Shown here: positions 6,541 to 28,256 of the stretch, piece after piece | Layout of the letters: every line of letters starts with the position of its first letter | How positions within the stretch are numbered: the first letter of the stretch is position 1 | Assembly (NCBI RefSeq): GCF_009848505.1 | Contig: NZ_WWDL01000001.1 | Span: 248,001-312,000, forward strand | Length of the DNA stretch: 64,000 bases | Direction: 5' to 3' | Source of the DNA: Muricoccus harenae | GTDB lineage: Bacteria > Pseudomonadota > Alphaproteobacteria > Acetobacterales > Acetobacteraceae | Position numbers and translations under genes: made by a program | The notes under the pieces: generated by a model | Told to the model about the DNA's origin: nothing | The model's input: only the letters and a program-made list of their open reading frames with translations | Databases searched by the model: none

Positions 6541-6927
6541 TCAGTCCGCCGCATAGCCGGAGGTGGGCGAGACCACGCCGAGGCTCCGCATGGCATCCAC
6601 CAGATCCAGGGTCCGGAAGGGTTTGCGCAGGAAGCGCTCCTTCGGGCCGAAATGCCGGTCATTGGCATGGTCCGGGCGGCCGGTGAGATAGATGATCGGC
6701 AGATAGGGATGTCGCGCCTGGGCGGCCTTCGCGGCATCGAAGCCGTTCGGGCCGGGCCCGAGGTCAATATCGGTCAGCAGAAGTTCGCAGCCGCCGGCCG
6801 AATCGATCTGGGCAATGGCATCGTCCGCCGTGGCAGCCGGGCGCACGACGAAGCCCTCGGCCTCCATGATGTCCGTCAGGACATCTCGCACCAGATCGTC
6901 ATCTTCGAGCACCACCACGTTGTGCAT
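6541..6927 (-). CDS. Single-domain response regulator (receiver only)
   Basis: A 128-residue CheY-like receiver. The acidic pocket is EDDD near residues 8-11, the phospho-acceptor is D53 in LLTDIDLGPGPNG, the switch Thr is in IIYLTGRPD and the conserved Lys is in FLRKPF. No output domain follows, so it should act by protein-protein contact or as a phosphotransfer intermediate. No partner kinase is adjacent. An EcfG-like promoter lies 35 bases upstream, which would place it in the general stress regulon. The convergent aldo/keto reductase gene ends three bases away. Confidence 0.88.
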   Translation of the reverse strand: MHNVVVLEDDDLVRDVLTDIMEAEGFVVRPAATADDAIAQIDSAGGCELLLTDIDLGPGPNGFDAAKAAQARHPYLPIIYLTGRPDHANDRHFGPKERFLRKPFRTLDLVDAMRSLGVVSPTSGYAAD

Positions 6928-16940: not shown

Positions 16941-18878
16941 CTAAGCCGCCGTGACGCCCAGCAGCATCGCCACCTGCTCGGCCAGGTCGGCCTGGCGATA
17001 GGGCTTGTGCAGGACAGGAATGCCCGCCGCGAGCTTCGCCAGCTCCGCATAGCCAGTGACGAGCAGGATCGGCAGGTCCGGCCGCATCGCCCGCGCGCGC
17101 TCCGACAACTCGGCCCCGGTCATACGCGGCATGGCGAAATCCGCCACCATCAGCCGCACGGAAGGGTCGGTCTCCAGCACGCGCAGCGCGGCGTCGCCAT
17201 CGGCGGCCTCTACCGTGTCGTGGCCAAGATCGGAGAGAAAGCCCGCCGTCACCTCGCGCACCGTCGCGTCGTCATCCACCACCAGCACGCGCACGGGGTT
17301 CTGCGTGGCGGGCGTCTCTTCCTCGTCCCCGCGCTCCCCGCCCGTCTCCTCGCCGCCGCTGGGCAGGTAGAGGATGACGCGCGTGCCTTCGCCGGGTGCG
17401 CTATCGATCGTCACGCCGCCGCCGGATTGCCGCACCAGCCCATAGACCATGGGCAGGCCCAGCCCGGTGCCCTTGCCGATGTCCTTGGTGGTGAAGAAGG
17501 GTTCGAAGACCCGCGCCAGCACCTCGGGCGTCATCCCCGTGCCGGAATCGGCGACTGAGACGCGGACATAGGATCCGGCCGGCACCTCCGCCACCTCCTC
17601 CGCCTCCAGTTCGACCGTCTGGGTCGTCAGGGTGATCACGCCGCCGCCCGGCATGGCGTCCCGCGCGTTGATGCAGAGGTTGAGCAGCGCCAGCTCCAGC
17701 TGGTCCGGGTCCACCCGCGCGGTGTCCGGATCGGCCGAAAGCCGCCGCCGCAGCTCGACCGTGCCACCGAGGGTCCGGGCCAGCAGGTCGCCCATACCGA
17801 TGATGAGGCGGTTCACGGAGACGGTACGCAGCGCCAGCTCGTTCTGCCGCGAGAAGGAGAGCAGGCGTCGCGTCAGGGCCGATCCACGCTCCGCCGCCAT
17901 GGTGGCGTTGCGCAGCAGGCGTTGCAGGTCGGGCGCGTCCCGCACCCGCCGTCCGGCGAGATGGAGACTGCCGAGGATGGCGGTGAGGAGATTGTTGAAG
18001 TCATGCGCGATGCCGCCGGCCATGGTGCCCAGCGCCTGCATCTTGTCCGCCTGGCGCAGCCGCTGCTCCATCTGCCGCGCCTCGGTGACGTCGCGCGCGA
18101 TGGTGACGAGCACGCCATCGCCGAGGGGGATGCGGCTGGTCTGCATCCAGCGCACCGTGCCGTCTTCGCTGCCATGCTGCTCCACCAACTCCGAGACGGC
18201 GCCTTCCACCGCCGCCGCGCGCTCGGCCCGCGCCAGGCGCTCGGCCTCGGCCGGCGACAGGAACACGTTCTCGCAGCACCCGAGGCAGGCTTCGACCGTG
18301 GAGCCGAGGCTGGCCGCCTTGGCCGCGTTCAGTCGCAGGAACCGGCCGTTGCGGTCCTTGAAGGACAGCTGGTCGGGCAGGTTGTCCAGCAGGCCGCGCA
18401 GCAGGGCGCGTTCCGTCGCCAGCGCCTGGCGCAACCCGTGGCGGTCCCGCGCCGCGGCCACCATGGCGAGCAGCCCGGCCGGCTCCCAGGGCTTGGGTGT
18501 GTAGCCGGCGATGCGGCCGCGATTCAGCGCCCCCACCACTGCGTCCAGCTCGGCATAGCCGGTCAGCAGCAGCGCCTCGGCGTCCGAATAGGCGCGGGCG
18601 CGTTCGAGGAAGGCGTCGCCGGTCAGGCCGGGCATGCGCTGGTCGGAGAGGATCACGGTCGGGCGCAGCCCGCCCGCGAGCATCTTCAGCGCCTGCTCCG
18701 GCCGGGTGGTCGAGACGACCTCGTACTCGTCCTCCAACAGGTCGGTGAGGGCCGTCAGGATCTCCGGCTCGTCGTCGACGAGGAGGATGGTCGCCCTTTC
18801 GCCCTGGCCAGCCTTGGTGCCGGTGCCGGTGCCGGTGCCGGTGCCGGTGCGGATGCCGGTGTCGGTGCCGCCGCTCAC
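16941..18878 (-). CDS. Hybrid histidine kinase REC-PAS-HisKA-HATPase-REC
   Basis: A 645-residue soluble kinase, last gene of the chemosensory operon. Order: a low-complexity TGTGTG leader (10-21), an N-terminal receiver (acceptor D79 in VILSDQRMPG, with KPWEP as in RpfG-like receivers), a PAS domain (DNLPDQLSFKDRNGRF), a HisKA domain with His in GGIAHDFNNLLTAI, a catalytic domain (NLCINARDAMPGGG; SDSGTGMTPE-like VADSGTGMTPEV; GKGTGLGLPMVYG), then a C-terminal receiver (VADFAMPRMTG). The GTG start overlaps the upstream kinase's stop as GTGA. It probably receives phosphate from CheA or from the upstream kinase; no DNA-binding output is present. Confidence 0.9.
   Translation of the reverse strand: MSGGTDTGIRTGTGTGTGTGTKAGQGERATILLVDDEPEILTALTDLLEDEYEVVSTTRPEQALKMLAGGLRPTVILSDQRMPGLTGDAFLERARAYSDAEALLLTGYAELDAVVGALNRGRIAGYTPKPWEPAGLLAMVAAARDRHGLRQALATERALLRGLLDNLPDQLSFKDRNGRFLRLNAAKAASLGSTVEACLGCCENVFLSPAEAERLARAERAAAVEGAVSELVEQHGSEDGTVRWMQTSRIPLGDGVLVTIARDVTEARQMEQRLRQADKMQALGTMAGGIAHDFNNLLTAILGSLHLAGRRVRDAPDLQRLLRNATMAAERGSALTRRLLSFSRQNELALRTVSVNRLIIGMGDLLARTLGGTVELRRRLSADPDTARVDPDQLELALLNLCINARDAMPGGGVITLTTQTVELEAEEVAEVPAGSYVRVSVADSGTGMTPEVLARVFEPFFTTKDIGKGTGLGLPMVYGLVRQSGGGVTIDSAPGEGTRVILYLPSGGEETGGERGDEEETPATQNPVRVLVVDDDATVREVTAGFLSDLGHDTVEAADGDAALRVLETDPSVRLMVADFAMPRMTGAELSERARAMRPDLPILLVTGYAELAKLAAGIPVLHKPYRQADLAEQVAMLLGVTAA
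18816..18869 (-). repeat. Nine-unit hexanucleotide repeat in kinase gene start
   Basis: The plus strand reads GGTGCC nine times in a row, the first five exact and the next four with single changes in three of them (GGTGCG, GATGCC, GGTGTC). In the kinase frame it encodes alternating Gly-Thr at residues 4-21. Because the unit is six bases, gain or loss of units keeps the frame and only changes linker length. Confidence 0.85.
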
Positions 18879-20644
18879 GCCGGGCCCTCCGTCGGGAACT
18901 GGTCCTCGGGCGGGATGCGGCCCTCAAGCGGGACGTGGATGGTGAAGCGGGCGCCACCGCCGGGGGCATCGTCCACCGCGATGCTGCCGTGATGCGCTTC
19001 CACCACCGCATAGGCGATGGACAGGCCCAGCCCCGTGCCGGAGCCGACGGGCTTGGTGGTGAAGAAGGGTTCGAAAATGCGGGCGCGGATCGCCTCGGGC
19101 ACGCCCGGGCCGGTGTCGGAAACCTCGATGACGTAGTCCTCGCCTTCGGTGCGGGTCGCCACGCGGACGCGGCCGGTGCCTTCGATGGCATCCGCCGCAT
19201 TGCCGATAATGTTCATGACCACCTGGTTCAGCAGGGCGGGCGAGCAGCGCAGGATGCGCGGTGCCGCGAAGTGCCGTTCCACCACGATACGGTCGGACAG
19301 CTTGTGCGTCAGCAGCACCAGCACGGTGCTGATGGCTTCCGGCACGTCCACCTCCTGCGCGCCGGCCTCATCCAGTCGGGAGAACTTCCGAAGATTCAGC
19401 ACGAGCTCCTGGATGCGACGCAGGCCAAGCGTCATGGATTCCGCCCGATGCGCGGCCTTCTCCACCGCCTGCCGCGCCTCCGGATCCTCGGCGACGCGCG
19501 GCGCCACCTGCGCGAGCAGGCGCGTCACAGTGCCCTGATGCGCCAGGATGAAGGCGAGCGGATTGTTGATCTCATGCGCGATGCCGGCCACCAACTCGCC
19601 CAGCGACGCCATTTTCGCGGCCTGCACCAGCTTGCCCTGGGTGTCGCGCAACGCCTTGTTGGTCGATTCCAGCTCGGTATTGGCGCGCTCCAGCGCACCT
19701 GTCAGCGCGGCGCGGGCTTCCGCCGAGGCGGCTTCCGCCCGGGCGCGCTCCACCTCGCGCAGCTGCTCGCGCATCGCGACCTCGATGCGCCGGTTCTCCT
19801 CCCGGAGAAGCTTGCGGCGGACCAGGGCGCGCACGCGCAGGCGGATGGCCTCGGCACCCGCTTCGGCCGGTAGCACGTCATCCGCCCCCGCCTCGAAGGC
19901 GGCCGTGGGCGAGGCACGCGCGCCCTCCAGCGCCACGATGCGGAAGCCCGAGCCCTGGGCCCGGATCGCATCCAACCGGCCGCAGAGCGCCAGCCCCTCG
20001 GGTCCCAGACCCGCCAGGTTCACCAGCACCCCGTCCCAGGGATCGTCCAGCCGGAGCGCCGCCGCCTCCGCCTCGGTGCTGCCCACCGCCTCCACGCTGT
20101 CGCCGTCTCCGGCCAGCAGGGAGGAGAGCCAGAGCCGGTGCGTCGGGCTGTCGTCCACGAGCAGCAGGCGGGCACGGCGGAAGGCGGTGCCGGGGGCGTC
20201 GGGCATCGCCTCCGTATCCCCCGCATTGCGGCGAAGCAGGGCCCGCAGGCGCAGCAGGATCAGCTCCCGTCCGGCCGATTTCGGCGCATAGGCATCGGCG
20301 CCGCTTTCCAGTCCCTGGCGCTCCAGGTCGCCGCCATGCGCGCCGCCCTGGGCGTCGGTGAGCATCAGGACGGGCAGGGCGCGGGCGCGGACGTTCAGGC
20401 GGATCCGCCGCACCAGCTCGTCCCCGTTCATGCCGGGCAGGTGGTAGTCGGCGATCACCAGGGCGGGGAGGGGGCCGTTCAGCCCCTCCAGCGCGGCCTC
20501 GGCGGTTGCGGCGCGGGTCACGGCGAAGCCCTCGCCCTCCAGCATCCGACGGAGCTGGAGGGCCTGCGTGTCGGAGTCCTCGACGAGCAGGATGCGCGCG
20601 GCCTCGCCTGTCGTTTCCCTCCGCATTGCCGTCTCGGCGCTCAC
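18875..20644 (-). CDS. REC-REC-histidine kinase, CheS3-like
   Basis: A 589-residue soluble kinase. The first receiver ([10 protein letters not shown]; acceptor Asp in [17 protein letters not shown]) looks functional. The second receiver keeps [11 protein letters not shown] but reads [14 protein letters not shown] where the acceptor Asp should be, so it probably cannot be phosphorylated. A coiled-coil ([20 protein letters not shown]) leads to the HisKA His in [17 protein letters not shown] and a catalytic domain ([34 protein letters not shown]). This layout recalls CheS3 of the Rhodospirillum centenum Che3 cyst-development system. The GTG start overlaps the cheB stop as GTGA. Confidence 0.88.
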
Positions 20645-21696
20645 TCTCGCTTCGCTCCCACGGCCTTCAGCAGACGCGGTCCAATCGCTTCGAGCGGCAG
20701 GGAGGTTGAAACCCCGCCCAGCCTCACGGCCGCCGCTGGCATGCCATAAACCACTGCGCTCGTCTCGTCTTCGGCGAGCGTCAGGCCGCCCGCGTTCCGC
20801 AGGGCGGCAAGGCCTCGTGCCCCATCCTCTCCCATACCGGTCAGCAGAATGCCGAGGCCGCGCGGCCCTACCGCACGGGCCATGGTCTGGAACATGACAT
20901 CCGCCGCCGGGCGTTGGCCGCCCACCGGCGGCGCCTCGCTCACCTGCATCAGCCCGCCAGTGGTCACGCCCAAATGCCGGTCCCCCGGGGCGACATAGAC
21001 ATGGCCGGGGCGGGGAAGCACCATGTTCTCGGCCAGCATCACCCGGGGCTCCACAAGCCCATCCAGCCAGCTAGCAAAGCCTTCCATGAAGGGGGCGCCC
21101 ATATGCTGCACCAGCAGGATGGGTACGGGAAAATCAGCCGGCAGGCTGCCCAGCACGCGAGCCAGGGCCGGCGGTCCGCCGGTGGAGGCGGCGATGCCCA
21201 CCAGCGTGGGACGGGCCGGCAAGGCCAGGTTTTCCTCGGGGTGCGGCGCGGGAGCGCCGGGCCGCTGCGGCGAGCGCTGCCGGATCACGGGCACCTGGCT
21301 CATGATATAAAGCTGCGTGCAGATGGATTCCGCCACCTGCTCCCAGCCCCCGCGCGAGGGGCCGAGTGGCTTCTCCACCACCGAAAGCGCCCCAGCCCGC
21401 AGGGCGTTCATGGAGATCCGCAGGCCCCGCTCCTCCACCGCATCGGCGATCACGACGATCGGGGTGGGGCGCTGGGTCATGATCTGGCGCGTCGCCTCCA
21501 GCCCGTCCATGCCGGGAAGGCGGATGTCCATGGAGATGACGTCGGGCCGGACCCGCTCCAGCTCCGCCAGCGCCTCCTCGGCGGAGGACACCGCGGCCGC
21601 CAGCTCCAGCCGTGAATCGCGCAGGACGATATGCGCCAGCAGCTGCCGCACAACGGCACTGTCCTCGACGATCATCACGCGCACAGGCTTGTTCAA
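20641..21696 (-). CDS. cheB: Chemoreceptor methylesterase CheB
   Basis: A 351-residue two-domain protein. The receiver carries ED at 11-12 and acceptor D57 in ISMDIRLPGMDG, with VVEKP supplying the Lys. The esterase domain has the catalytic Ser171 in GIAASTGGPPAL, His198 in LLVQHMG and Asp291 in LLTGMGEDGARG. It removes methyl groups from receptor glutamates when phosphorylated by CheA. The start appears to be TTG at 21696, eight bases after the cheA stop and without a clear ribosome site, which suggests reliance on coupling. Length is standard. Confidence 0.95.
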   Translation of the reverse strand: MNKPVRVMIVEDSAVVRQLLAHIVLRDSRLELAAAVSSAEEALAELERVRPDVISMDIRLPGMDGLEATRQIMTQRPTPIVVIADAVEERGLRISMNALRAGALSVVEKPLGPSRGGWEQVAESICTQLYIMSQVPVIRQRSPQRPGAPAPHPEENLALPARPTLVGIAASTGGPPALARVLGSLPADFPVPILLVQHMGAPFMEGFASWLDGLVEPRVMLAENMVLPRPGHVYVAPGDRHLGVTTGGLMQVSEAPPVGGQRPAADVMFQTMARAVGPRGLGILLTGMGEDGARGLAALRNAGGLTLAEDETSAVVYGMPAAAVRLGGVSTSLPLEAIGPRLLKAVGAKRE

Positions 21697-21704
21697 GGCA
21701 GGGA

Positions 21705-23933
21705 TCAGATCAGCTGGCCGATGGCCGCCAGCAGTGCCTGCTGGTCGAAGCCCTGCTTCGTCAGATAAGCGGTCGCGCCCAGCTCCATGCCACGCTGCAC
21801 GTCGCCCGGGCTGTCGCGGGAGGTCATCAGAATCACCGGCAGACCCGCGAGATGCGGGTCGGCCCTGATTGCTTCCAGCAAACCGAACCCGTCCATCCGG
21901 GGCATTTCGACGTCGGCGAGGACAAGGTCAATCGCTGCGCCCGGTTCACGCAAAGAGTTGAGGCCGTCCACGCCATCCACCGTCAGGGTCACGCGATAGC
22001 CGCCGGACTCCAGGATGCTGCGCTCCAGCGTACGGGTGGTGATGGAATCATCCACCACCAGCACATGGCGCCGGCGACGTTCCGGCCCGGCACCGGCCGG
22101 GCGGGCGGCGCCGGGGCGGGTGGCCTCGCGCAGCCCGCGCTGGAACAGCCCGTCCGGACGCAGCACCAGCGCCACCGCCTCGCCCTCCAGCAGGGCGGCG
22201 CCGGAGAAGAGGGCGGTGTCCAGCCCCGGCGCGTCCACCTCCGTCACGACCAGGTTGCGCGCGTCGCGCAGGGCCGAAACGGCCAGTGCCAGCCGCGCCC
22301 CGCCCCGGGTGAGCAGCACAGCCTGGATAGACCCGTCCGGTGGAGGCCCTTCCGGCTGGCCGAGCAGGGCGGCAAGCGGCACCAACGGCACCAAGGCTTC
22401 GGCGCCGTTCAGCACCAGCCGTGCGACCGGCCGCCCTTCGGCAGTGGTCATCCTGTCTGGCGCCAGGCGCAGCATCGGGCCGACGGTGACGAGCCCACCC
22501 CCGCCGGGAAGGCCGAGCACCTGTCCCCCCGCCTCCAGCAGCAGCAGGGTCTGCCGTCCTGTGGAGGGCGGCAGGGCGATCACCACCTCGGTCCCGCCGC
22601 CATCCAGGCTGGGGCGCGGGCGCATCGCGGCGCCGCCATGCAGCGCAACGGCGGCCTCCGCCACCACCGAAAGCCCCATGCCGCGCCCGGAAAGGCTGTC
22701 CACCGTGCCTGCCGTGGAGAACCCGGGCTCGAAAACGAGAGAGAGAAGGGCGTCTGGCGGCGGCGGGGCGGCGCCGGGCTGGCGGGGCGCGAGCAGGGCC
22801 CGCCGGATGGCGGTGGCCTCGATAGCCGCGAGGTCAGGCCCAGGCCCGTTGTCCCAGACCATAACGGAAAGCCCGCCGCCGGTCGCGGCCACGCGCAGGC
22901 CGATCTCCGCACGGCGTCCGTCCCGGGGGGCGCCATGGCCGAGGGCATTGCGCAGCAGGTGCAGCACCGGGTCCTTCAGCGCCTGCAGCACGCGGCGTTC
23001 GGCCTGGATTTCCATGCCCTCGGTCCGCACCGTCACCTCGCCCCCGGCCTCGCGGGCCATCTCCCGCGCCGCCGCCGCCAGGGGGGCAAGGATGGTTCCG
23101 GCAGGAACCAGGGCAATGGCCTCCACCTCCTCCCGCAGGGCGCGGGCGGCGCGGTCCATGGCGTCCTCGGCGGCGCGGCCCTGGCGGGCGAGGCCGGAGA
23201 CGCGGCGCACCACCTCTCCCAGGGCCGCATCGAAGCCGCGCAGGCGAGGTGTCAGGGAGGGATCGGGCGGAAGCGCCGCGCGCAGCCCATCCCAGCTGCG
23301 GCGAAGCATGCGCAGCTCGGCCTCCACCTCGCGCAGCCCGGCGCCGGTGGAATCATGGCGCTGGATCAGGGATTTGAGCCCGTACATGGCGGCCGAGAGC
23401 CGCTCCACCCGGCTCGCCTCCACGCGCAGATAGCCTTCGGCGGGAAGTGGGGCCTCGGCCGGTGCCTGGGCCGGACGGGGCGGGGCCGAAACGGCCGGAG
23501 GCGCCTCAGGCACCTGCATTGCCTGCGGAGCTGGGCCAAGCGCGGCATCCAGCGCGGCCAGGGCCACCTCGGGCGGGGGCGGCGCCTGGCCCTCGGCCAC
23601 GGCGGCCGCCTGGGCCTCGATCGCATCCAGCCCGCGATGCAGCAACGCCAGCAACGGCGCTGTCAGCCGCGCCGCGCCGCCGGCGGCCCTATCTGTCTCG
23701 CGCGCCAGCAGCGCCTCCAGCCGATGCGCCACCGCCTCCAATGCGGGCAGGTCCACCGCCCGGGCGGCGCCCTTCAGCGAATGGGCGCGGCGGAACACCT
23801 CGCGCAGCGCGGCGGGCTCGAGCGTGACGGCGCCCGTCTCATCCTCGGCGGACAGGGCCGCGCGGATGGCTGCCAGATGCTCCCGGTGCTCGGCCGCGAA
23901 AGCCGCCAGCAGTTCCGTGCGGAAGTCGGGCAC
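21705..23933 (-). CDS. cheA: CheA-type histidine kinase with C-terminal receiver
   Basis: A 742-residue hybrid CheA. An Hpt domain has the phosphorylated His51 in FRRAHSLKGAARAV. A Pro/Ala-rich linker around 125-165 replaces a P2 domain. The ATP domain shows LRNALGHGAPRDGR, VMVWDNGPGPDL and SLSGRGMGLSVV, followed by a CheW-like domain and a receiver (LVVDDSITTRTL; acceptor Asp in LVLADVEMPRMDG; LTKQG). CheA-REC hybrids occur in Wsp-, Frz- and Che3-type systems rather than flagellar ones. The GTG start at 23933 lies 33 bases after the receptor gene. The attached receiver may act as a phosphate sink or an output. Confidence 0.94.
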   Translation of the reverse strand: MPDFRTELLAAFAAEHREHLAAIRAALSAEDETGAVTLEPAALREVFRRAHSLKGAARAVDLPALEAVAHRLEALLARETDRAAGGAARLTAPLLALLHRGLDAIEAQAAAVAEGQAPPPPEVALAALDAALGPAPQAMQVPEAPPAVSAPPRPAQAPAEAPLPAEGYLRVEASRVERLSAAMYGLKSLIQRHDSTGAGLREVEAELRMLRRSWDGLRAALPPDPSLTPRLRGFDAALGEVVRRVSGLARQGRAAEDAMDRAARALREEVEAIALVPAGTILAPLAAAAREMAREAGGEVTVRTEGMEIQAERRVLQALKDPVLHLLRNALGHGAPRDGRRAEIGLRVAATGGGLSVMVWDNGPGPDLAAIEATAIRRALLAPRQPGAAPPPPDALLSLVFEPGFSTAGTVDSLSGRGMGLSVVAEAAVALHGGAAMRPRPSLDGGGTEVVIALPPSTGRQTLLLLEAGGQVLGLPGGGGLVTVGPMLRLAPDRMTTAEGRPVARLVLNGAEALVPLVPLAALLGQPEGPPPDGSIQAVLLTRGGARLALAVSALRDARNLVVTEVDAPGLDTALFSGAALLEGEAVALVLRPDGLFQRGLREATRPGAARPAGAGPERRRRHVLVVDDSITTRTLERSILESGGYRVTLTVDGVDGLNSLREPGAAIDLVLADVEMPRMDGFGLLEAIRADPHLAGLPVILMTSRDSPGDVQRGMELGATAYLTKQGFDQQALLAAIGQLI

Positions 23934-23966
23934 TGCCCTGTCCCCTCCCGGCCGATGCGGACGCCG

Positions 23967-25637
23967 CTACAGCCGGTACCGCTCGGCGATCCGAACCAGC
24001 CCCTGACTCAGTCCGGCCATGTTCCCCGCAGCCTGGTCAAGCTGCCGGGTGCCGGCGGCGGTCTGCTGGCTTGCCTGCCGGATGTTGGTCAGCGCGCTCA
24101 TCACCTGCTCAATGCCCAACTGCTGCTGGTTGGTGCTGGCGACGATCTGCTGGAAGGTATGCACCGCCTCCTGCATGCGGGCGGTGATCTCGCGGATGGT
24201 GGAATGGCTGGTCGCGGTGCGCTCGCGCCCCGCGGCGGCGCGCTTCACCGCCTCCTCCGTCAGCATCACGGATGAATTGATGCCGCGCTGGATGTCGCCG
24301 AGGATGGCGCGCACCTGCCCGGTGGCCTCTTTCGCCTGGTCGGCCAGCGACTTCATCTCGGCAGCCACGACCGAGAAGCTGCGCCCGGCCTCGCCCGCCG
24401 CCGCCGCCTCGATGGCGGCGTTCAGCGCCAGCAGGTGGCTGCGCTCGGAGATGTCGTTCACCGTCGCGGTGATCTCGCTGATCGCCTGGGTCTTCTCGCT
24501 GAGCGCCACGATGTTCTCGGCCACGCGCTCCGCCTGTTCGCGGATGCCATCCATGGCGCGCACCGTCTCCTCCACGGCGTGCAGCCCATTGTCGCTGGTG
24601 CGCACGGTAGCCTGCGCGGCAGCAATCACCTCCTGCGCGCGCTTGCCGATCTGGGCGCCGGAATGGGTGATCTCGTCCACCGTGGCTGCCGTTTCCTGCA
24701 CGGCGGCGAGCTGCTCCTCCACGCTGGCCGCCTGCTCCTGCGTGCTCGCGCGGATTTCGGCGGTGGCGGCATCCAGCTGATGCGTCGCTTCTTGGCTCTG
24801 GCGGGCAAGGTCCCGCAGGCCGGCCACCATACCGTTCAGCGTCTCCCCCAGCCGGCCGAACTCGTCCCGCCCCTCGCGGGCCGGGCTGCCCGCCAGCTCC
24901 CCGCGCCCGATCCGCTGCACGAATTCCATCAGCCCCTCCAGCGGCCGGGCGATCGCCCGGCGAATGAGATAGGAGACCGGAACAGCGATCAGGGCCGCGA
25001 TGGTGATGCCGCCCAGGATGAGGGTGCGCGCGCGCGCGGTGACGGCGTCCACCTGCTGCTGGCCGATTGCGGAGAGCCGCGCCGTCGCTGCATCGACCCG
25101 CTCCATTGCCTGGTCAACGTCGGCGGCGCTGGCGATGGCGTCGGGATCGGCCGCGATCACCCCGGCGAGGTCATTCGCCTGCAGGAGACGGAGCTTCGAA
25201 TCAACCCGCTCGCGGTAACGGGAGAGGGCAGTACCCACCTGATTCAGCCCGGCAATGACGCCCATCCATGCCCCCTGCCGGTCTTCTGAGATAGACTGGG
25301 TGGATAAGGCCTGCGCGGCGCTGAGCGTCTCATTCAGGCTGGCGGCCATACGGCCGCTGGCACGCTGCCAATCCGAAACATAGTCGGGTCCCGGCCGCGT
25401 GCCAGGCAGGGCGTGCCGACCCAGGAAGCTCACCATGATGCGTTGCCGCACGTCGCGCATCTCGACAAGCGACTCCCGCAGATTTCCGACCTGCCGTGTC
25501 ACGGAGACATCACGGCTGGTGATGAGGCGGCTGGACTCCCGCACCGACTCGAATTGCTCGAGACTCCAGAGGCCAAGGAAGATGGTGAGCAGCGTCAGCG
25601 TCACGAAGCCCAGCAGGGCGCGGTTGGTGATGGACAC
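23967..25637 (-). CDS. mcp: Methyl-accepting chemotaxis protein
   Basis: A 556-residue chemoreceptor. TM1 is LLGFVTLTLLTIFLGLW (residues 8-24), a helical periplasmic domain of about 190 residues follows (four-helix-bundle type), and TM2 is LILGGITIAALIAVPVSYL. A HAMP domain (RRAIARPLEGLMEFVQRIGRG) leads to the signalling coiled coil with the hairpin SERSHLLALNAAIEAAAAG. No C-terminal pentapeptide for CheR tethering is seen. The GTG start lies five bases after the upstream cheW stop. The ligand is unknown. Confidence 0.94.
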   Translation of the reverse strand: MSITNRALLGFVTLTLLTIFLGLWSLEQFESVRESSRLITSRDVSVTRQVGNLRESLVEMRDVRQRIMVSFLGRHALPGTRPGPDYVSDWQRASGRMAASLNETLSAAQALSTQSISEDRQGAWMGVIAGLNQVGTALSRYRERVDSKLRLLQANDLAGVIAADPDAIASAADVDQAMERVDAATARLSAIGQQQVDAVTARARTLILGGITIAALIAVPVSYLIRRAIARPLEGLMEFVQRIGRGELAGSPAREGRDEFGRLGETLNGMVAGLRDLARQSQEATHQLDAATAEIRASTQEQAASVEEQLAAVQETAATVDEITHSGAQIGKRAQEVIAAAQATVRTSDNGLHAVEETVRAMDGIREQAERVAENIVALSEKTQAISEITATVNDISERSHLLALNAAIEAAAAGEAGRSFSVVAAEMKSLADQAKEATGQVRAILGDIQRGINSSVMLTEEAVKRAAAGRERTATSHSTIREITARMQEAVHTFQQIVASTNQQQLGIEQVMSALTNIRQASQQTAAGTRQLDQAAGNMAGLSQGLVRIAERYRL

Positions 25638-25642
25638 GCGGG

Positions 25643-26242
25643 TCAGGCTCCGTGATCTGGAGACAGGGAGGAAGGCGCGAAGGGCCGCAGGAGGCGGTCA
25701 ATGTCGAGCACGGCGAGGATCGTTTCCGCTTCCGGAAGCCGAGCATGAAAGGCGACGGCCCCGCCGGGGCTCGGCGGCGTGCGTTCCGGCGGCAGGGGCA
25801 GCGGCGCCTGGGCCCCGAGCGCGCGGCCTACCCGAAGCGCGAAGCGGCGCGCACCTGTGGCGGATCTCGGATCGCGTCGCAGCAGCACGTCATGGCCGCC
25901 CGACGGGCCCTCCTCCGCCCCGAGGGGCGTGAGGCCGAGCAGGGCGGCGAGGTCCAGCACCGCATGCAGCCGCCCCGCGCGGGCACGCAGGCCGAGGACC
26001 GCAGGAGGGCTGCCGGGCAGGGGATAGGGCGGTTCGGCTGGCAGCACCTCGGCCACCCGCAGCAGGTCCAGCCCGAAGGTCTCGCCGCCCGCCGCCAGCA
26101 GCAGGACGGGCGCCATGGGCAGGGCCGTGGCCGTGACGCCGCGGCGGGCTAGGCGCTCGGCGCGCTCCTCCAGCAGCCGCGCTGCCCGGGTCTCGTCGAG
26201 CCCGTCCAGGAAGCCCGGATCCGGTAGGAAGCGCAGCGGCAT
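25643..26242 (-). CDS. cheW: CheW-type coupling protein (second)
   Basis: A 199-residue CheW-domain protein with an N-terminal extension of about 40 residues (FLDGLDETRAARLLEERAER), the form seen in Wsp/ACF-type second CheWs. The core reads VLLLAAGGETFGLDLLRVAE, then PPAVLGLRARAGRLHAVLDL and LDIDRLLRPF. It should link the receptor to CheA. Its ATG shares one base with the cheR stop (TGATG), and the receptor gene starts five bases later. Confidence 0.88.
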   Translation of the reverse strand: MPLRFLPDPGFLDGLDETRAARLLEERAERLARRGVTATALPMAPVLLLAAGGETFGLDLLRVAEVLPAEPPYPLPGSPPAVLGLRARAGRLHAVLDLAALLGLTPLGAEEGPSGGHDVLLRRDPRSATGARRFALRVGRALGAQAPLPLPPERTPPSPGGAVAFHARLPEAETILAVLDIDRLLRPFAPSSLSPDHGA

Positions 26243-27735
26243 CAGCGGGCGCCGCCCCGTTGGGCAAGGTGGAAGCGCGCCAGGCCGAGAAGGGTGTCAG
26301 CCGTCATTCCATCTCCCTCCTCCAGCAGCGTCGTGCCCGGCAGGGCACGGGCGAGCCGCGCCGCATTGGCGATGCACCGGCGCCCTGCCTCCGCCGCCCC
26401 TCGATCCAACAGCAACAATCCGAGCTGGTAGTGCGCCGCCACGAAGCCCTTGTCGAGGTAGAGGGCCCGGCGCAGCGCCGCCTCGGCCGCCGCTGGTTCA
26501 CCCAGCGCGCGCGACACGAGCCCGTCCAGGTGATGCAGCGCGGCCGTGGTCGGGTGGGCCTGCAGCGCATCGCGCAGCGTCTTCCGCGCCGCCGCCATCG
26601 CGCCCGAATCGGCCTGGGCGCGGGCGCGGTCCACCAGGGTGCGGAGATCGGGGGCCGGGTTCGGCGGGTCAGGCTCGGGCGGGGCGGCCTGCGGTGGGAT
26701 CGGGGAAGCTGCGCGTGGGAGCGGCAGCGTGGCGATCGGCGGGAGAACCGGGGCAGGCGCAGAGTAGGAACCGGGGCACCAGGGCGGGACCGCCATGTCC
26801 GGCGGCACCGCCTGGGCCGGAGGGGAGGCCGGGCACGCATCGCCCGGCGCTTCGGTGGACTTCCCGCTCTCCTGCACTGGCAGCATCGGCCGCCAGGCTG
26901 CGGTCCCGGGCAAGGCGATGGGCCGCAGGAATTGGTTGAAGCTCGGATCGGGCTCCGAATGCCCCAGCAGCAGCCATCCATCCGGCGCGAGCCGGTCCCC
27001 CAGCGCCCGGACCAGCCGCGGCGTTAGCTCACGGTCGAAATAGATCAGCACGTTACGGCACAGGATCAGGTCGAACTCGGTCATGCCGAGCGGCAGGCTG
27101 CCATCCAGCAGGCCAAGCAGATTCTGCCGCTCGAAGCGCACGGTGTTGCGGTGCTCGGGGCGCAACTGCCAGGCGGCGCCGCCCTCCACCGGCAGGAAGT
27201 TTCGCGCGCGCTCGGCCGGGGCCATGCCGCGCAATGCCCAGGGGCTGAACCGGGCCTGGCGCGCGGTGGTCAGCGCTGCCTCGCTGATATCCGTGCCGAG
27301 GATGGTGATGCTCCAGCTCCGGTGGTCCGCGCCCAACAGGTGCTGCAGCAGGATCGCCACCGAATAGGGTTCCGCCCCGGTGGAGCAGCCGGCGGACCAG
27401 ATCCGCAGCCGCCGCTGCCCGGCCCGGCGCGCGACGAGGCTTGGCAGGATGGTGTCCCGCAGCGCGTCGAACTGGCCGGCATCGCGAAAGAAGTAGGTCT
27501 CGCCGATCGTGATCTCGGATTCGAGGACGATCCACTCCTCCTCGCTACCCGCCAGGAGAGAGAGATAGCCCCTGCAGCTTCCCGCGCCCGTTGCCCGGAT
27601 GCGGCGCTGCACCCTCTCCCAGAGGGCGGCGTCCTTGTCCTCATAATAGGTATGGCCGGTGCGCTCGATGATCTGCCGCTTCAGATGCGGGAAGGCGGGA
27701 TCTGGCGCCGGATGTTCCGAGGGCGCGCCCTTCAT
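26242..27735 (-). CDS. cheR: CheR methyltransferase with C-terminal TPR
   Basis: A 497-residue protein. The N-terminal half is CheR: TYYEDKDAALWERVQRRIRA, SEITIGETYFFRDAGQF, SAM-binding RIWSAGCSTGAEPYSVA, LGTDISEAALTTAR, FDLILCRNVLIYFDRE and LLLGHSEPDPSFNQF. A Pro/Ala-rich linker (about 300-360) leads to tetratricopeptide-like helices (ALQAHPTTAALHHLDGLVSR; AALRRALYLDKGFVAAHYQL). TPR-tailed CheR is typical of WspC/FrzF-like systems. The ATG at 27735 overlaps the upstream cheW stop as ATGA, which settles the start. Confidence 0.93.
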   Translation of the reverse strand: MKGAPSEHPAPDPAFPHLKRQIIERTGHTYYEDKDAALWERVQRRIRATGAGSCRGYLSLLAGSEEEWIVLESEITIGETYFFRDAGQFDALRDTILPSLVARRAGQRRLRIWSAGCSTGAEPYSVAILLQHLLGADHRSWSITILGTDISEAALTTARQARFSPWALRGMAPAERARNFLPVEGGAAWQLRPEHRNTVRFERQNLLGLLDGSLPLGMTEFDLILCRNVLIYFDRELTPRLVRALGDRLAPDGWLLLGHSEPDPSFNQFLRPIALPGTAAWRPMLPVQESGKSTEAPGDACPASPPAQAVPPDMAVPPWCPGSYSAPAPVLPPIATLPLPRAASPIPPQAAPPEPDPPNPAPDLRTLVDRARAQADSGAMAAARKTLRDALQAHPTTAALHHLDGLVSRALGEPAAAEAALRRALYLDKGFVAAHYQLGLLLLDRGAAEAGRRCIANAARLARALPGTTLLEEGDGMTADTLLGLARFHLAQRGGAR

Positions 27736-28256
27736 GCCGCGTCGCCGGTGCCCCATCGCGCCAGCCGGCGCTGCGCCTGGCCGGAAAGTTCCTCGAGGAT
27801 CGCTGCCTCCTGCGCCAGGAGCAACCGCGCCGGATCGAGAAGATGCCGGCTGCCGCCCGGCCCCTCGACCTCGCCGGCGATGACGCCGCCAAGTGAGCGC
27901 TCCGCCTCCACCGGGCGAATGGGCAGGCCTTCCGGCACCACGTCCGCCACCCGGTCGACCAGCAGGGCGAGCTTGCCCTTACCTTCGGGCCGGTCGAGCA
28001 GGATCAGGTGGCGATAGGGATGCGGCGCCCCGGGCTCGCCGCCGAGCAGGAGGGCCAGCTCCACCACCGGCACGGCGGTGCCGCCGAGATTCAGGAAGCC
28101 GGCGAGGAGCTCCGGCAGGCCGGGCGGGGAATCCAGGCGCGGCAGGGGCAGCAGGGCGCGCACCGCCTCGCGCGGCAGGGCACAGGGCATGCCACCCATG
28201 GCGAAAAGCACCAGCGGGCCAGCGGCAGGGGCTGGCGGTTCAAGCGGCGTGGCCAT
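27732..28256 (-). CDS. cheW: CheW-type coupling protein (first gene of operon)
   Basis: A 174-residue CheW. Core signatures: LVLFAMGGMPCALPREAVRA, LPELLAGFLNLGGTAVPVVE, LILLDRPEGKGKLALLVDRV and VADVVPEGLPIRPVE. A C-terminal tail of about 35 residues (LSGQAQRRLARWGTGDAA) extends beyond the domain. AGGAGG four bases before the ATG is the strongest ribosome site in the operon, fitting its place as the first gene. The promoter should lie in 28257-28383, where I do not see a clear consensus. Confidence 0.9.
   Translation of the reverse strand: MATPLEPPAPAAGPLVLFAMGGMPCALPREAVRALLPLPRLDSPPGLPELLAGFLNLGGTAVPVVELALLLGGEPGAPHPYRHLILLDRPEGKGKLALLVDRVADVVPEGLPIRPVEAERSLGGVIAGEVEGPGGSRHLLDPARLLLAQEAAILEELSGQAQRRLARWGTGDAA

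Follow-up and report, generated by a model that had tools for sequence, protein, structure and literature searches.

Eight open reading frames (ORFs) occupy positions 28256–16941, on the minus strand, of the window analysed here, a 64,000-nucleotide (nt) stretch of Muricoccus harenae DNA (contig NZ_WWDL01000001.1, positions 248,001 to 312,000). Overlapping or separated by gaps of no more than 33 nt, they form a chemosensory operon in the order cheW-cheR-cheW-mcp-cheA-REC-cheB-RRHK-HK2, in which RRHK denotes the seventh protein, a REC-REC-histidine kinase, and HK2 the eighth, a REC-PAS-histidine kinase-REC protein (REC, receiver). The two kinases at the 3' end recur in this operon across many related bacteria. 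Overlaps link cheW with cheR (25 nt), cheR with the second cheW (1 nt), cheB with RRHK and RRHK with HK2 (4 nt each), while gaps of 5, 33 and 8 nt lie between cheW and mcp, mcp and cheA, and cheA and cheB, respectively. An initial annotation of this DNA had proposed eight tightly packed genes in this order; all of the ORFs are present where it placed them, and their Pfam domains agree with it. The features are:

27732..28256, minus strand: cheW-a, coupling protein, first gene (Pfam CheW, 58.1 bits)
26242..27756, minus strand: cheR, MCP methyltransferase with a weak C-terminal TPR (Pfam CheR, 153.4 bits; NCBIfam TPR models)
25643..26242, minus strand: cheW-b, second coupling protein (Pfam CheW, 45.4 bits)
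23967..25637, minus strand: mcp, membrane chemoreceptor with a predicted four-helix-bundle sensor, HAMP and signalling domain (Pfam HAMP and MCPsignal; AlphaFold2)
21705..23933, minus strand: cheA-REC, with Hpt, HATPase, CheW and a C-terminal receiver (Pfam)
20641..21696, minus strand: cheB, receiver-methylesterase (Pfam REC and CheB_methylest)
18875..20644, minus strand: RRHK, with REC1, REC2 (acceptor Asn), a long helix, HisKA and HATPase (Pfam, PleD profile match, AlphaFold2, Foldseek)
16941..18878, minus strand: HK2, with REC, PAS_4, HisKA, HATPase and REC and a CckA-like kinase core (Pfam; PDB match; tree)
18816..18870, strand unspecified: hexanucleotide repeat in the first HK2 codons, period 6, 9.2 copies (Tandem Repeats Finder)

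By gene and domain content, the operon belongs to the alternative cellular function (ACF) type of chemosensory system: CheA carries a C-terminal REC, CheR a weak TPR, the output is a multidomain response regulator, flagellar genes are absent and the genes form one cluster. The likeness to ACF/Wsp/Che3-type operons recognised in the initial annotation is thereby borne out. Its reading of the second gene as a CheR-TPR fusion is secure for CheR and less so for the TPR, which is detected by NCBIfam TPR-containing models at residues ~369–469 with E-values of 1e-5 to 2e-4 and for which Pfam gives no match at 1e-3. Pfam analysis of the eight proteins found no CheY, cyclase (GGDEF), DNA-binding or flagellar gene product, and the two soluble kinases are, as had been claimed, the only outputs encoded in the operon. 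The reported absence of a CheY holds for the operon itself, but a 128-residue, single-domain CheY-like receiver (Pfam REC, 47.3 bits) is encoded 10 kb beyond HK2, at 6541–6927 on the minus strand, and is a possible candidate partner of HK2.

The spread of the kinase pair was followed through its CheA. A search of 150 Acetobacteraceae genomes (family assignment inferred), keeping best matches of at least 38% identity over at least 485 residues, retained 21 genomes, that of the window included, and the regions of the other 20 were compared. The pair lies directly 3' of cheB in 17 of these 20 regions, one of which (L137) has it 3' of cheA instead. L137 (G048:C85:280000-299500) is a reduced cluster of mcp, cheA, RRHK and HK2, with no cheB, cheR or cheW found by tblastn across the 19.5-kb region; it would perhaps signal without adaptation, unless those genes are located elsewhere. 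In genome G021 the two kinase genes sit together on a different contig, flanked on each side by other genes (L221), and in G009 they stand at the edge of a different contig (L222), a separation that is probably an assembly break; G138 gave no RRHK match at 1e-40.

In a second set, 33 of 80 named CheA loci were mapped (47 left unmapped), and 15 of them have both kinases 3' of cheB: three from Microvirga, seven from Methylobacterium, two from Sphingomonas (RRHK of one, L114, detected by tblastn only) and one each from Komagataeibacter, Acidisoma and Pseudoroseomonas. G021 is probably the same genome as Crenalkalicoccus roseus (L040), and further overlap between the 150-genome and 80-locus sets is possible. 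Because the same order recurs across many genomes, the eight-gene set is far beyond chance. HK2, which had been taken for an addition to a known arrangement, is no such extra, recurring as the partner of RRHK in Acetobacteraceae, Methylobacteriaceae and Sphingomonas.

The remaining 18 mapped loci comprise Crenalkalicoccus, a Hyphomonadaceae metagenome-assembled genome, four Azospirillum loci, Geminicoccus, L056 and ten more distant loci. The Hyphomonadaceae genome (L042) encodes a REC-REC-PAS-histidine kinase-REC fusion and Geminicoccus (L058) a REC-REC-histidine kinase-REC-Hpt protein, both assigned by Pfam together with alignment of the second REC. The Azospirillum loci have a short REC-REC gene followed by a separate kinase, the short gene being without a match in L052, and eight of the ten more distant loci place one large protein (~980–1240 residues) with a receiver match 3' of cheB. 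In a class-wide sample of 385 genomes, scoring at most three candidates per genome, RRHK matched at 1e-60 in eight, a result that indicates a patchy distribution of the system in the class. Five of these eight, counting the window genome, have the pair in a che cluster; one of the five (L223) runs RRHK-HK2-cheW-cheR-cheW-mcp-cheA-cheB, with an HK2 only 33% identical. The other three are L181, a long REC-REC kinase outside a che cluster, and two matches in the kinase core only. The two kinase genes remain neighbours in L221, which is away from che genes, and in L223, where they open the cluster.

Phylogenies of CheA, RRHK and HK2 from 31 genomes resemble one another closely (distance r of 0.89, 0.93 and 0.95; 19, 19 and 20 of 28 splits shared), and the RRHK-HK2 pair thus appears from sequence to be a unit that is co-inherited with CheA. 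The initial annotation had asked whether the two kinases might fall among unrelated sensor kinases. HK2 does not: in a tree of kinase cores, 27 cluster rows form one group against 7 sampled paralogs from the window genome with support of 100/99. This tree omits 6 of the 13 paralogs, most of these six being on long branches, and 5 of the 32 cluster rows, whose close relatives are already in the set. In the full HK2 tree, long-branch paralogs included, the cluster proteins lie on one side of a branch from the own-genome paralogs with support of 66; the Hyphomonadaceae fusion L042 groups there with paralogs of the window genome, which suggests a separate recruitment. For RRHK the answer is mixed. 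Its kinase cores are split with support of 100/100 from eight own-genome kinases and four HK2, but the group also takes in two kinases of other families (L176 and L177), which sit beside L180, the most distant RRHK. This tree leaves out the long rows L168, L170 and L175 and 11 close relatives, a first version having had long branches that met. The best-scoring relative of RRHK in the window genome is the HK2 kinase (38%).

Conservation is unevenly distributed along these proteins. Across 31 sets (28 rows for MCP, 30 for CheB and 25 for the HK2 C-terminal REC; domain borders set by hand), mean pairwise identity is high in RRHK REC1 (0.67), the RRHK DHp (0.70), the HK2 N-terminal REC (0.63) and the HK2 DHp (0.69), and likewise in the CheA REC (0.65), the CheB REC (0.67) and the MCP signalling domain (0.74). 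The low values are those of REC2 (0.42), the HK2 PAS (0.42), the HK2 C-terminal REC (0.48) and the MCP sensor (0.28). The best-kept chain through the two kinases is REC1 - DHp - N-terminal REC - DHp. The sensor is the least conserved part of the receptor, and the stimulus may therefore differ between species; its AlphaFold2 model has four helices within residues 3–244, and Pfam 4HB_MCP_1 matches mcp homologues only below its cut-off.

Within RRHK, Pfam at E≤1e-3 reveals only one REC. The second is supported by a profile of 12 homologues that matches PleD over both receivers (PleD residues 2–276), by a REC-REC-only profile that does likewise, and by homologue P0007, in which Pfam finds two RECs. 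In the AlphaFold2 model (mean predicted local distance difference test (pLDDT) 75.7; predicted template modelling score 0.48), an alpha/beta receiver begins at ~159 and its last helix runs continuously into the kinase, with pLDDT below 50 at 339–351 within this helix. Foldseek gives the lowest E-value for LvrB (8vc9), with a template modelling score by query length of only 0.24–0.25 and hence no global superposition, and recovers PleD over ~287 columns at rank 12. The window protein has the acceptor Asp in REC1 (D66) and an Asn at that position in REC2. Of 32 non-Azospirillum RRHK rows, all 32 keep the REC1 Asp; 18 have Asp at the REC2 position, where the other 14 show a different residue or a gap. 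Three Azospirillum loci (L050, L051 and L059) encode a stand-alone REC-REC protein with a decayed REC1 and a REC2 that keeps its Asp, the reverse of the window protein and of Rhodospirillum centenum CheS3.

The helix that connects REC2 to the kinase varies in length in a restricted manner. Counted from Arg277, where REC2 ends, the kinase His357 lies 80, 73 or 69 residues on (0, -7 or -11) in 38 of 38 RRHK rows, a set that does not include Geminicoccus L058, the fusion L042 or any Azospirillum row. This length changes five times on a tree built from the whole alignment, helix columns included. Of four control segments in the same alignment, three vary by single residues; the fourth, inside REC1, measures 50, 52 or 56. 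Heptad and hendecad steps preserve the phase of a coiled coil, and the observed lengths are as would be expected if the helix behaves as a coiled-coil rod.

HK2 finds its best PDB sequence match in CckA (5idj, E 2.1e-45), and the nearest sequences to its N-terminal REC are receivers of the HD-hydrolase and HupR kinds (2rjn, 2jk1). The Asp of this REC and the DFNN part of the H-box are kept in all 32 cluster HK2 rows. The C-terminal REC is absent from six of the 32, and these rows fall in two separate groups on the tree. The repeat at 18816–18870, just inside the HK2 start, encodes a Thr-Gly tract; the first 26 residues of HK2 lie outside the match to a homologue from the same genus (L119), so translation may in fact begin further downstream.

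Several characterised systems resemble this operon in part. The R. centenum Che3 system (CheA3-CheS3-CheY3), which governs cyst formation, also has two CheW, CheR, CheB, an MCP and a CheA-REC (PMC3868531, PMC2890560), and its locus tags (CheS3 RC1_2124, CheA3 RC1_2127, CheY3 RC1_2133; PMC2890560) suggest a similar layout with an extra CheY. Unlike R. centenum Che3 with its CheY3, the operon described here has a second hybrid kinase and no CheY. The initial annotation had likened RRHK to CheS3. This stands for the REC-REC start with an acceptor Asp in the first receiver only (D54 in REC1 and A191 in REC2 of CheS3; PMC3868531), but not for the remainder: RRHK has HisKA (29.6 bits in Pfam) and no PAS detected by Pfam, whereas CheS3, by its published description, has PAS and an HWE kinase. 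The resemblance is limited to the N-terminal PleD-like REC-REC module.

In Burkholderia, a Wsp-type operon has its diguanylate cyclase WspR replaced by a REC-histidine kinase, WspH (PMC8552884, PMC4324302). WspH, however, is one gene 5' of its operon, whereas two kinases stand at the 3' end here; the present order also starts with cheW rather than mcp, and has neither the WspR cyclase nor WspH as a single output. According to the same work, Wsp has been reported only in beta- and gammaproteobacteria (PMC8552884, PMC4324302). In the CheR-TPR/ACF operons surveyed by Munoz-Martinez (2012), ~40% of response regulators contain a histidine kinase module, as here, but the main-text passages drawn on do not mention a fixed tandem kinase pair (PMC3447774). 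In domain order and probable coupling logic, RRHK is like LvrB, a REC-controlled kinase (PMC13269768), and PleD, a REC-REC-GGDEF protein: a REC is joined to the DHp by a helix of phase-keeping length, and both receivers match PleD by profile and fold. LvrB differs in having one REC, its paper making no mention of chemotaxis or CheA, and PleD in ending in a cyclase.

From domain content, conservation, pairing, co-inheritance and helix phase, we tentatively propose, with rather less than even confidence, a relay from CheA through the RRHK receivers to the RRHK kinase, on to the HK2 N-terminal REC and HK2, and finally to an unlinked regulator, with every transfer, its sign and the final target inferred. 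The MCP-CheW-CheA array would set CheA phosphorylation, making a chemoreceptor array the sensor of a kinase cascade; CheR and CheB would adapt the array, and the REC of CheA itself would probably drain phosphate. CheA may then phosphorylate REC1 of RRHK. Together with the less conserved REC2, degenerate in the window, REC1 would act as a PleD-like dimer switch, shifting the register of the long coiled coil that leads into the kinase, as in LvrB, in which REC phosphorylation switches the kinase through coiled-coil formation (PMC13269768). RRHK would phosphorylate, or take phosphate from, the N-terminal REC of HK2, a step inferred because of the pairing and conservation, and so switch HK2, whose PAS may add a cytoplasmic input. 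HK2 could then act on a regulator encoded elsewhere, through its own C-terminal REC where present. Transfer from CheA to REC1 is the only one of these steps with a biochemical precedent, in that R. centenum CheA3 phosphorylates REC1 of CheS3; the reaction was seen when the REC acceptor of CheA3 was missing, but wild-type CheA3 did not show it (PMC3868531). A broader form of this proposal, which we consider possible but doubtful, is a three-tier cascade from CheA to RRHK to HK2 in which the REC-REC module is a fixed plug for CheA and lineages have exchanged the kinase that follows it, which appears as a HisKA pair, a CckA-like fusion, a kinase with REC and Hpt, a split REC-REC protein with a separate kinase or, in the literature, an HWE kinase.

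A number of observations weigh against the proposed relay. Pairing and co-inheritance give no direction, and congruent trees, which cover the operon genes CheA, RRHK and HK2, may simply come from the operon being inherited as a whole. R. centenum CheS3 phosphorylates a CheY and not a second kinase (PMC3868531), and REC1 phosphate is proposed to be inhibitory in CheS3 while LvrB is activated, so that the sign could go either way (PMC3868531, PMC13269768). The acceptor Asp present in more than half of the REC2 rows suggests that REC2 is perhaps more than an adaptor in places, the loss of the HK2 C-terminal REC in six rows means that the signal need not always pass on through that domain, and the three Azospirillum proteins whose acceptor survives in REC2 but not in REC1 show that REC1 is not the target everywhere.

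The two kinases could instead be parallel outputs, CheA phosphorylating both RRHK REC1 and the HK2 N-terminal REC and each kinase acting on different or shared regulators with no mutual contact. The acceptor Asp retained in the first REC of either kinase in 32 of 32 cluster rows fits this arrangement, as does the position of both genes 3' of cheB with 4-nt overlaps; we nevertheless regard it as unlikely, since HK2 adjoins RRHK even away from the che genes (L221) and its N-terminal REC is nearest to HD-hydrolase and HupR-kind receivers. Complete independence, with RRHK and HK2 a two-component pair merely sharing the transcript, is a reading in which we place hardly any belief. The same L221 locus, where the pair is apart from che genes in one genome, speaks for it, but the pair adjoins cheB (or cheA) in 17 of 20 regions and is co-inherited with CheA, and the REC-REC module also heads fused or exchanged kinases in the Hyphomonadaceae, Geminicoccus and Azospirillum clusters.

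The relay proposed above has also to be set against readings that differ in what lies downstream. Both kinases contain an HE/D-x-x-N motif, a type known from bifunctional kinases, and RRHK and HK2 might thus oppose each other, as kinase and phosphatase, on one unlinked response regulator. In Myxococcus xanthus, the Che3 cascade counteracts CrdS on CrdA (PMC3868531). Such a balance seems improbable to us: it offers no role for the conserved N-terminal REC of HK2, and no linked regulator recurs near the clusters, where 2 of 236 genes flanking the 32 clusters match a cluster protein at 1e-3. HK2 may alternatively be a CckA-like donor to the phosphotransferase ChpT, by which the array would adjust a CtrA-type relay. 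Among solved structures the HK2 core is closest to CckA, and the window genome has one clear ChpT (57.8 bits), with a second, borderline match inside a 640-residue frame (22.6–23.2 bits, the cut-off being 22.9); of six Hpt matches in this genome, one comes from a short, stand-alone 125-residue frame. We consider this decidedly improbable, given that 6 of 32 HK2 rows have lost the C-terminal REC on which such a relay depends and that many other hybrid kinases of this genome have similar cores.

An operon-linked output gene was sought by comparing the flanking genes of the 32 clusters and the window, and was rejected, none recurring adjacent to the cluster; divergent receivers could be missed by this comparison. 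Within five genes on each side, the two matches to cluster proteins are fragments, one of an MCP and one of a kinase, and each lies at the edge of its region. One flanking family recurs across lineages, in 7 of 32 loci at scattered positions, and its examined member (L120) is an ABC transporter. The next families, at seven loci each, are lineage-limited: a proteasome-subunit-like gene and a neighbouring AAA gene in acetic acid bacteria, probably HslV and HslU, and a Methylobacterium family of which the member tried has no Pfam match. In the window, the examined flanking genes encode a TRAP-type transporter on one side and, on the other, a small protein without a Pfam match and a protein whose ankyrin-repeat matches fall short of Pfam cut-offs. 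A scan for sigma-70-like promoters returned 0 sites, a result that carries little information in GC-rich DNA.

The window genome has four further chemosensory loci. A second chemosensory operon (L214, G000:C1:450000-466000) calls to mind the R. centenum Che2 cluster with its tripartite CheW: it comprises mcp, cheB, cheR, cheA, a receiver protein and a frame that encodes three CheW domains. L216 (G000:C13:60000-75000) is a CheA-REC operon in which CheB is apparently split into a REC gene and a methylesterase gene, as judged from BLAST matches only. In another genome, an ACF cluster (L229, G245:C1:603000-621000) encodes a receiver-PAS-kinase-REC protein after cheB, and after that one which on visual inspection resembles REC-EAL, an arrangement that suggests cyclic di-GMP as the putative output of a related system.

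ACF operons with a REC-kinase output have already been published (PMC3447774, PMC8552884, PMC4324302). Neither the tandem-kinase form nor the same gene set with a defined output, for which the initial annotation had advised looking, was found described in the parts consulted of openly licensed PubMed Central full texts, subscription papers and supplements lying outside the search. The pair provides a small, self-contained protein set for measuring kinase-to-kinase signalling. Chemosensory arrays are usually thought to drive a CheY or a cyclase; the family described here suggests a recurring alphaproteobacterial design in which the array drives a stack of kinases through a conserved receiver plug with exchangeable kinases behind it, and the R. 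centenum and Burkholderia cases would become parts of this larger pattern.

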